Part shown: positions 51,047-55,531 of the stretch, piece by piece
Layout of the letters: each line of letters begins with the position of its first letter
Position numbering within the stretch: position 1 is the stretch's first letter
NCBI GenBank assembly: GCA_018672315.1
Contig: CP076053.1
Location: forward strand, 3,211,827 to 3,275,826
DNA length: 64,000 nucleotides
Source of the DNA: Nocardioidaceae bacterium
GTDB taxonomy: Bacteria > Actinomycetota > Actinomycetes > Propionibacteriales > Nocardioidaceae
Direction of reading: 5' to 3'
Made by a program: the position numbers and the translations under genes
The notes under the pieces: model-generated
Seen by the model: the letters and a program-made list of their open reading frames with translations, nothing else
Databases searched by the model: none
What the model was told of the DNA's origin: nothing

Positions 51047-51793
51047 TCACAGGTGGATCCCGCACTCGACCTTGCCGGTGCCCGACCAGCGACCCGCGCG
51101 GGCGTCCTCGCCCGGCTCGACCCGACGGGTGCAGGGCTCGCAGCCGATCGAGGGGTAGCCGTCGTAGGTCAACGGGTTCACCAGCACGCCGTGCTCGGTG
51201 GCGTACGCCTCGACGTCCTCGTCCGTCCAGCGCGCGAGCGGTGAGACCTTGACCTTGCCCTTGGACTCGTCCCAGCCGATGACGGGGGCGATCACGCGGT
51301 CGCGCGTCTCCGCGCGACGCAGTCCGGTGGCCCAGGCGTCGTAGCCCGCCAGCATCCGGGAGAGCGGCTCGACCTTGCGCATGCGGCAGCAGGCGTCGGG
51401 GTCGCGGGCGAAGAGGTCCTTGCCGTACGCGGCATCCTGCTCGGCGACGGTGAGCTCGGGACGCGCCGAGACGACGTTGACCGGCATCGTGGCCGCCACG
51501 GCGTCGCGCGTGCCGATCGTCTCGGCGAAGTGGTAGCCGGTGTCGAGGAAGACCACGTCGATGCCGGGCACGACGCGCGAGGCGACGTGGGCGAGCACGC
51601 CGTCGGACATCGACGAGGTCACCGCGAAGCGCGGACCGAAGGTCGCAGCCGCCCACTCGATGATGTCCTCGGCCGGCGCCAGCTCCAGCTCCATGCCGAC
51701 GTGCCGCACGATCTCGCGCAGCTCGTCGCGGGAGCGCCCCTCGGTGTGGCTGCCCCGGTAGGCGTAGGCGGCGCGTGAGCTCGCGGTGGTCAT
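51047..51793 (-). CDS. cysH: Adenylylsulfate (APS) / phosphoadenylylsulfate reductase
   Basis: 248 residues. PP-loop-like ATSSMSDG and FLDTGYHFAET; CCRMRKVEPL and GCEPCTRRV provide the 4Fe-4S cluster Cys (so APS rather than PAPS type). The catalytic Cys is in the terminal ECGIHL. It reduces activated sulfate to sulfite. The start overlaps the zinc-ribbon stop (ATGA). Confidence 0.95.
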   Translation of the reverse strand: MTTASSRAAYAYRGSHTEGRSRDELREIVRHVGMELELAPAEDIIEWAAATFGPRFAVTSSMSDGVLAHVASRVVPGIDVVFLDTGYHFAETIGTRDAVAATMPVNVVSARPELTVAEQDAAYGKDLFARDPDACCRMRKVEPLSRMLAGYDAWATGLRRAETRDRVIAPVIGWDESKGKVKVSPLARWTDEDVEAYATEHGVLVNPLTYDGYPSIGCEPCTRRVEPGEDARAGRWSGTGKVECGIHL

Positions 51794-53687: not shown

Positions 53688-53816
53688 GATGAGTCCTCTG
53701 TCAGGCAGGTGTCGTGCAGGCGCACGTCGACCCGCCGGGGCCAGCCCGGGGTGCCGACGGCGCCCGGCACCCGGAGGTGCGATGGATCGACCACGCGGTG
53801 GTCGGGGGCGGCAGCG
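53688..53816 (-). promoter_or_regulatory. Candidate attenuator region between the leader peptide and sir
   Basis: The 129-nt transcript section has two stem-loops: GACCAC-CGC-GTGGTC (53803-53789) and GGGTGCCG with CGGCACCC (arms 53772-53765 and 53756-53749). Placed after a leader peptide with a Cys codon near its end, they may couple leader translation to sir expression. The alternative structure was not computed. Confidence 0.45.
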
Positions 53817-53903
53817 TCAGGCAGGACGACAGATCATGCTCTGGAGGCGACCCAGGTCCACGTGACGACGCGTCACGAGATGGGTGGTCGCGTCACGGTG
53901 CAT
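53817..53903 (-). CDS. Sulfur-operon leader peptide (28 residues, HVDL...CR type)
   Basis: ATG 53903 to TGA 53817; the C-terminal part reads [17 protein letters not shown] with one Cys codon at position 25 just before the stop. I recognise this as the actinobacterial putative leader peptide family (R-x-HVDL-x-R-xx-S-xx-CR), which occurs upstream of sulfur assimilation genes. CAGACT lies six bases before the ATG with TTGGTT 18 bp further upstream, so the mRNA begins at the ATG. Role: sensing cysteine-tRNA supply, by analogy with the mycobacterial cysteine-responsive leader. Confidence 0.82.
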
Positions 53904-53909
53904 GCGGAC

Positions 53910-53939
53910 AGTCTGCTCCGCGCGGCCGCACTCAACCAA
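53910..53939 (-). promoter_or_regulatory. Promoter of the leader-sir operon (TTGGTT-18-CAGACT)
   Basis: -35 TTGGTT (53939-53934), 18-bp spacer, -10 CAGACT (53915-53910), then six bases to the leader ATG. Confidence 0.55.
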
Positions 53940-53942
53940 GCC

Positions 53943-53968
53943 GACATCCTGCTATGCGGGATGACATC
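53943..53968. promoter_or_regulatory. Direct repeats GACATC, possible operator
   Basis: GACATC at 53943 and 53963, 20 bp apart (two helical turns), with a CATCC/GGATG inverted pair between, just upstream of the leader promoter. A candidate site for the sulfur regulator; not matched to a known motif. Confidence 0.35.
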
Positions 53969-54064
53969 TCACGTGTCGAGACGAGGCCCAGTGACTGCGC
54001 CGCAGGGGCGTCCCGTGTGAGCCATTCGCCGCCTGGACCAGCGGGCGACAGCAGCGGGGCGCCG

Positions 54065-54070
54065 TACGAT
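54065..54070 (+). promoter_or_regulatory. -10 element (TACGAT) of glyA
   Basis: TACGAT six bases before ATG 54077. No clear -35 box. Confidence 0.5.
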
Positions 54071-54076
54071 TCGAGC

Positions 54077-55531
54077 ATGACCGCGACCAGCGCCGACCGC
54101 AACGACTCCGCCAGCGCCGCGTACCGCCACGCGCTCGAGGTGATCAGCTCCGTCGAGCCCCGCATCGCCGAGGCGACGCGCCAGGAGCTCGCCGACCAAC
54201 GGGCCTCGCTGAAGCTCATCGCGAGCGAGAACTACGCCTCGCCGGCCGTGCTGCTGACCATGGGCACCTGGTTCTCCGACAAGTACGCCGAGGGCACCGT
54301 CGGGCACCGCTTCTACGCCGCGTGCCAGAACGTCGACACCGTCGAGCAGATCGCCGCCGACCACGCGCGGGAGCTGTTCGGCGCGGAGCACGCCTACGTG
54401 CAGCCGCACTCCGGCATCGACGCGAACCTGGTGGCCTTCTGGTCGATCCTGGCCCACCGCATCGAGCAGCCCGAGCTCGCGGGCCGGGGGATGCGCAACG
54501 TCAACGAGCTGACCGACGAGGACTGGGAGAAGCTGCGCGCCCAGATGGGCAACCAGCGGCTGCTCGGCATGAGCCTCGACGCCGGCGGTCACCTCACCCA
54601 CGGCTTCCGGCCGAACATCTCCGGCAAGATGTTCCACCAGCAGCAGTACGGCACCGACCCCGAGACGGGCCTGCTCGACTACGACCAGGTGGCCGCGAAG
54701 GCGCGGGAGTTCAAGCCGCTCGTGCTGGTCGCGGGCTACTCCGCCTACCCCCGCCGGGTGGACTTCGCGAAGATGCGCGAGATCGCCGACGAGGTCGGCG
54801 CGACCCTCATGGTCGACATGGCCCACTTCGCGGGCCTGGTGGCCGGCAAGGTCTTCACCGGCGACGAGGACCCGGTGCCGCACGCCCACGTCGTCACCTC
54901 CACGACCCACAAGTCGCTGCGCGGTCCTCGCGGGGGCATCGTGCTCGCCACCGAGGAGTACGCCCCCTCGGTCGACCGCGGCTGCCCCATGGTGCTGGGC
55001 GGCCCGCTGTCGCACGTGATGGCGGCCAAGGCCGTGGCCTTCGCCGAGGCGAAGACGCCGGAGTTCCGCACCTATGCCCAGGCGGTCGCCGACAACGCCC
55101 AGTCGCTCGCCGAGGGCCTCTCCTCGCGCGGGGCGAACCTGGTCACCGGCGGCACCGACAACCACCTCGTGCTGCTCGACGTGACCTCCTTCGGGCTCAC
55201 CGGTCGGCAGGCTGAGCAGGCGCTGCTCGAGGCGGGCGTCGTGACCAACCGCAACTCCGTGCCGAACGATCCCAACGGCGCCTGGTACACCTCTGGCATC
55301 CGGTTCGGCACCCCGGCGCTGACCACGCGGGGCTTCGGCCACGACGAGTTCGACCGCGTCGCCGACCTCGTCGTCGACGTGCTGTCCGGCACCACCGCGG
55401 GCACCACCAAGGACGGCCGGACCTCCAAGGCGTCGTACGTGCTGGGCGACGGGGTCTCCGACCGCAGCCACGGCGCGATCGAGGAGATGCTCGACGCCCA
55501 CCCGCTCTACCCCGGTCTCGACCTGGCCTGA
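54077..55531 (+). CDS. glyA: Serine hydroxymethyltransferase
   Basis: 484 residues, longer than the 415-430 of typical bacterial forms. PLP Lys is in [14 protein letters not shown] (about 280-293); [13 protein letters not shown] and [16 protein letters not shown] are family blocks. Converts serine and tetrahydrofolate to glycine and methylene-tetrahydrofolate. The extra length comes partly from an inserted segment around 150-190 ([19 protein letters not shown] in part). Divergent from the leader-sir operon. Confidence 0.96.

Follow-up and report, generated by a model that had tools for sequence, protein, structure and literature searches.

We assign a 28-codon open reading frame on the minus strand of the window, the 64,000-nucleotide stretch of Nocardioidaceae DNA analyzed here, as a cis-acting, cysteine-responsive ribosome-stalling leader that precedes a sulfite reductase (sir) operon, with a probability of roughly 0.7. 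Judged by sequence comparison, the reading frame is a real and strongly conserved leader peptide, and homology makes cysteine-dependent control of the sir operon likely. Such a leader would probably raise sulfur assimilation when cysteine runs short. The leader type is already known in actinobacteria, and the one in the window is a further case with a single cysteine codon. The assignment is supported by the presence of the leader before sir in 79 of 79 loci together with selection at the protein level, and by its counterpart Ms4527A, attenuation in Mycobacterium smegmatis, a strong bias toward UGU and pairing of the sir Shine-Dalgarno (SD) sequence with the leader. Against the stalling account counts the presence of one Cys codon here, whereas the tested leaders are poly-Cys.

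The leader spans positions 53903-53817 of the minus strand, with an ATG start at 53903-53901, 28 codons and a stop. The sequence-only reading placed the peptide on the correct strand and gave a region that extends to 53939, which is only an upstream in-frame TTG within the putative -35 region (53939-53930, minus strand; TTGGTT at 53939-53934 or TTGAGT at 53935-53930). A -10 box, CAGACT, occupies 53915-53910 of the same strand, 6 nt 5' of the leader ATG. Among 105 related loci, an xAxxxT hexamer could be placed 6-7 nt 5' of the start codon in every case, a figure somewhat inflated since the start codons were partly picked by the -10 spacing rule; conservation of the hexamer is nevertheless plain by eye, the Nocardioidaceae mostly having GAGACT or CAGACT. 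A TTG was found 14-19 nt 5' of the hexamer in 63% of these loci. A transcript beginning at the leader ATG fits the hexamer placement, and the predicted leaderless start is well supported because the hexamer is conserved at this spacing. The CAGACT box proposed earlier is present, and the leaderless start proposed with it stands as a prediction. The only Cys codon, UGU at 53831-53829 (minus strand), encodes Cys25 and is followed by three sense codons and the stop; it is the fourth codon before the stop, as had been noted, and lies 11 residues after the His of HVDL. The longest open reading frame of a divergent serine hydroxymethyltransferase gene (53714-55531, plus strand) overlaps the leader; the likely start of that gene is the ATG at 54077, and automatic annotation may hide the leader.

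The leader stop and the GTG start of sir are separated by an untranslated gap of 129 nt (53816-53688, minus strand). The sir gene (53687-51978, minus strand) encodes a ferredoxin-type nitrite/sulfite reductase (PF01077, 1.9e-61; PF03460, 5.4e-27) and is preceded by the SD GAGGA at 53698-53694 of the same strand; SDs of the AAGGAC/GAGGAC type are frequent among relatives. On the same strand follow a gene for a 63-residue zinc-ribbon-like protein with a CxxC...CxxC pattern (51981-51790), called from its sequence only, a cysH-type PAPS/APS reductase gene starting with the ATG at 51793 (51793-51047; PF01507, 3.6e-41) and a gene for a CbiX/SirB-like sirohydrochlorin chelatase (51039-50293; PF01903, 1.3e-32). 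The gene of the 63-residue protein, between sir and cysH, shares an ATGA overlap with each neighbor, and all four genes are co-directional with overlaps or short gaps. The four-gene sir operon described from the sequence is present, with Pfam matches to sir, cysH and CbiX.

When searched with the peptide, 49 of 58 genomes (that of the window and 57 relatives) had a match, and in nearly all of the 29 relatives' loci viewed in detail a sir-like protein start comes next. To avoid circularity, 80 loci were fetched with the sir protein alone. The pattern search found the leader in 73 of them, and four HVDY and two HVDH variants were added. The leader is thus present in all 79 assessable sir loci, which belong to Nocardioidaceae, Streptomyces and Pseudonocardiales; the remaining one (L092) ends at a contig edge and was left out of the 79. 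An alignment of 51 distinct Nocardioidaceae-like leaders over 17 codons gave a pN/pS of 0.37 in the leader frame, as against 1.40 and 1.56 in the two alternative frames, and since the ratio is low only in the coding frame, the leader core is selected at the protein level. The claim that the 28-residue peptide is real is borne out far beyond chance by its sequence, its conservation and this selection. The distance from the Cys codon to the stop is kept in 84 of 105 loci. What evolution has kept is the peptide core, the UGU, usually the distance from UGU to the stop, and the leaderless promoter; RNA structures differ by group. No other credible HVDL leader was found in the window's own genome.

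Despite selection at the protein level, certain codons are fixed as well, namely AGC for Ser and UGU for Cys. UGU encodes the leader Cys in 102 of 105 loci, whereas it makes up 16 of the 511 Cys codons (3.1%) in the sir reading frames of the same loci. Nearby synonymous sites change freely (pS 0.36-0.46), so the fixed UGU does not reflect shared recency. The same codon stands at +11 from the His or Ala of (H/A)VDL in 154 of 158 distinct leaders, counted without correction for relatedness: 92 of 94 single-Cys, 25 of 27 two-Cys and all 37 poly-Cys leaders. Although the search pattern behind these 158 demanded a Cys at +11, it leaves the choice of codon unbiased. At their other cysteines the codons are mixed or UGC predominates, as at position 4 with 24 of 26. 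The +11 Cys is also UGU in poly-Cys leaders that precede rhodanese-like and DUF4395-like genes (L115-L172), which were called by eye from protein starts. SD pairing alone was rejected as the cause of the UGU, as replacing UGU by UGC weakens pairing in Streptomyces but strengthens it in an eight-locus set ('kita').

The suggested match to an actinobacterial sulfur leader-peptide pattern is supported by matches to two NCBIfam models, both below cut-off, and by a mycobacterial counterpart before sir. The window peptide aligned to NF042936 (Ms4527A) over 19 residues with 24.9 bits (E 1.1e-5), below the 45-bit cut-off. Ms4527A-type leaders likewise precede sir, among them mycobacterial-type peptides such as LVARRHVDFKRVCSCCCLP* (fetched from other genomes), and the window peptide can therefore be regarded as their single-Cys counterpart. 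Both are short reading frames of the leaderless type (a prediction for the window) with the core LVxRRH(V/I)D(L/F)xRxxSxxC and have a UGU-encoded Cys at the same +11 position; they differ in that Ms4527A-type leaders have two to six Cys whereas the window peptide has one and misses the poly-Cys tract. With NF042934 (cis_reg_atten), a leader family found across the actinomycete class (183 of 247 class genomes, 0 of 14 controls), the window peptide scored 21.8 bits, below the 27-bit cut-off, and the four Nocardioidaceae-type peptides scanned also fell below it, whereas single-Cys sir leaders of Streptomyces pass with 33 and 38.9 bits. The NF042934 model thus probably leaves Nocardioidaceae-type leaders unnamed.

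In M. smegmatis, leaderless poly-Cys reading frames have been shown to control translation of the genes behind them through attenuation that depends on Cys (Canestrari 2020, doi 10.1111/mmi.14498, via PMC9031893). As described through that source, these attenuators resemble the window in combining a short leaderless reading frame, Cys codons and a downstream sulfur operon, the leaderless start being a prediction here; they differ in having a run of Cys codons, compared with a single one here. Attenuation is translational there and proposed to be so here, where a weak tendency to SD pairing was computed in relatives. Cys leaders without terminators have been predicted in mycobacteria (Seliverstov 2005, PMC1262725).

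The stem-loops that had been proposed between the leader stop and sir are present as predicted folds, three rather than two (53804-53788, 53780-53767 and 53766-53717, minus strand), and the gap fold does not exceed dinucleotide shuffles in stability (z -1.14, 28/200), nor does the fold from the leader to early sir stand out (z -1.53). No terminator-like site, that is an intrinsic terminator with a U-tract and an alternative stem, was found in the gap, and the window has no Rfam match. When the best complement between leader and gap was sought freely, 3 of 104 loci stood at or below the 5% shuffle level, so that no uniform partner emerged. In one Nocardioides subgroup with short gaps, a striking stem at the stop codon abuts the SD (z 8), a feature that is weak elsewhere; the covariation check on orthologous leaders that had been advised gave, for this stem, no covariation above shuffles. 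Having neither a terminator, nor excess stability, nor covariation, the hairpins are weak support for attenuation.

The SD itself behaved differently. Over the 105 loci, its ensemble partner within the leader and the beginning of the gap mostly consists of the Cys codon plus the 12 nt that follow. In the window, a candidate anti-SD, GUCCU, lies just 3' of the Cys codon (53827-53823, minus strand) and is the complement of AGGAC at 53697-53693. Pairing between SD and tract amounts to 1.36 bp in the real leaders versus 0.28 bp in synonymous recodings (p 0.002), and to 1.21 versus 0.05 bp in the window. Removing the RNA up to Cys+6, the part that a paused ribosome would occupy, makes the SD easier to open by 1.35 kcal/mol, the largest step tested along the leader (Wilcoxon p 6e-12, without correction for relatedness). 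The SD pairs, modestly, with the leader from the Cys codon on, and because this pairing exceeds that of synonymous recodings, it suggests translational rather than transcriptional attenuation. Several results count against a masking of the SD. In the window itself, the opening cost did not fall consistently after removal of the tract; overall SD accessibility was, on average, unchanged in resampled leaders; complementarity fell only slightly when SDs were swapped among loci (z 1.7); and the covariation of the stop-codon stem, given above, was null. The 17 Ms4527A-type loci gained no pairing (0.70 bp versus 1.34 bp in recoded controls), and masking as a trait shared with Ms4527A is not supported.

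The simplest account is a leader that senses Cys-tRNA through a pause at UGU and controls sir by translational attenuation, with Rho as a possible addition. RNA polymerase would start at or beside the leader ATG, as the -10 spacing indicates, and a 70S ribosome would translate the leaderless reading frame. When Cys-tRNA is scarce, the ribosome would pause with UGU in its A site, a step suggested by homology and by the conserved state of this one codon. The paused ribosome would cover the end of the leader from the Cys codon up to and including the stop; left uncovered, this tract pairs weakly with the sir SD. The freed SD would then allow higher expression of sir, the zinc-ribbon gene, cysH and cbiX, a mechanism we infer from the tendency computed in relatives. 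With plentiful cysteine the ribosome would finish the leader and the tract could pair with the SD. The C-rich gap would then stay free of ribosomes translating it, and this could also allow transcription to be ended by Rho.

Termination by Rho could also be the main event, which we consider a possible but doubtful alternative. If no ribosome is paused, Rho would load on the C-rich gap and transcription would stop before sir, and a pause at Cys would prevent this by altering folding or coupling. C exceeds G in all 105 gaps (0.45 versus 0.27), beyond sir (0.37/0.32) or the DNA upstream of the promoter (0.34/0.34), the gap holds no intrinsic terminator, and Rho has been proposed for actinobacterial cys operons (Seliverstov 2005, PMC1262725). 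Composition alone, however, cannot identify rut sites, and the leader tract also tends to pair with the SD. The conservation pattern can be read differently again, in that the peptide core is kept across genera and RNA structure is not. The nascent chain may thus assist arrest, RRHVDLxRxxSxxC acting in the exit tunnel with one UGU sufficient as sensor, and the readout (SD masking or Rho) varying by species. A single Cys suffices in 94 of the 158 leaders, and the distance from motif to Cys is 11 residues in the distinct leaders compared, as the search pattern required. In the TnaC arrest peptide, key residues lie 8-12 positions before the stall site, W12, D16 and P24 acting in the tunnel. The leader resembles such peptides in being short and conserved with a motif at similar spacing upstream of the proposed stall site, and differs in having no sequence relation to them and in that arrest here is only proposed. 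Since the poly-Cys relatives work through cysteine codons, and conservation could instead serve a function of the free peptide, we take nascent-chain arrest to be rather unlikely. A wider version is likewise tentative: (H/A)VDL and the UGU 11 residues on could form one stall module shared by single- and poly-Cys sulfur leaders of actinomycetes, requiring UGU rather than UGC and leaving the RNA readout free to change.

Strong amino acid conservation would also be expected of a peptide that acts in trans, or of an upstream reading frame that is simply translated, supplies sir with ribosomes and does not sense cysteine. The invariant UGU is a constraint at the nucleotide level that a trans-acting peptide would not need, and the leader stands before sir, its family also before other sulfur genes, which makes this explanation very improbable. 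That a chance reading frame and chance hairpins in GC-rich sequence account for the arrangement is next to impossible: the hairpins indeed do not exceed shuffles, but a chance origin of the peptide is ruled out by the leader in 79 of 79 sir loci and the pN/pS of 0.37.

With the cysteine-sensing leader as the preferred reading, control of sulfite reduction by cysteine leaders would reach beyond mycobacteria into Nocardioidaceae, whose leaders the present NCBIfam models appear to miss, and one Cys codon is the common state among the leaders compared. The fixed UGU offers a handle on whether codon identity or the nascent peptide sets the sensitivity of the leader. Finally, NF042934 leaders occur in many copies per genome in some actinomycete families, one genome (G244) having 15 matches, which suggests a large set of co-regulated operons.
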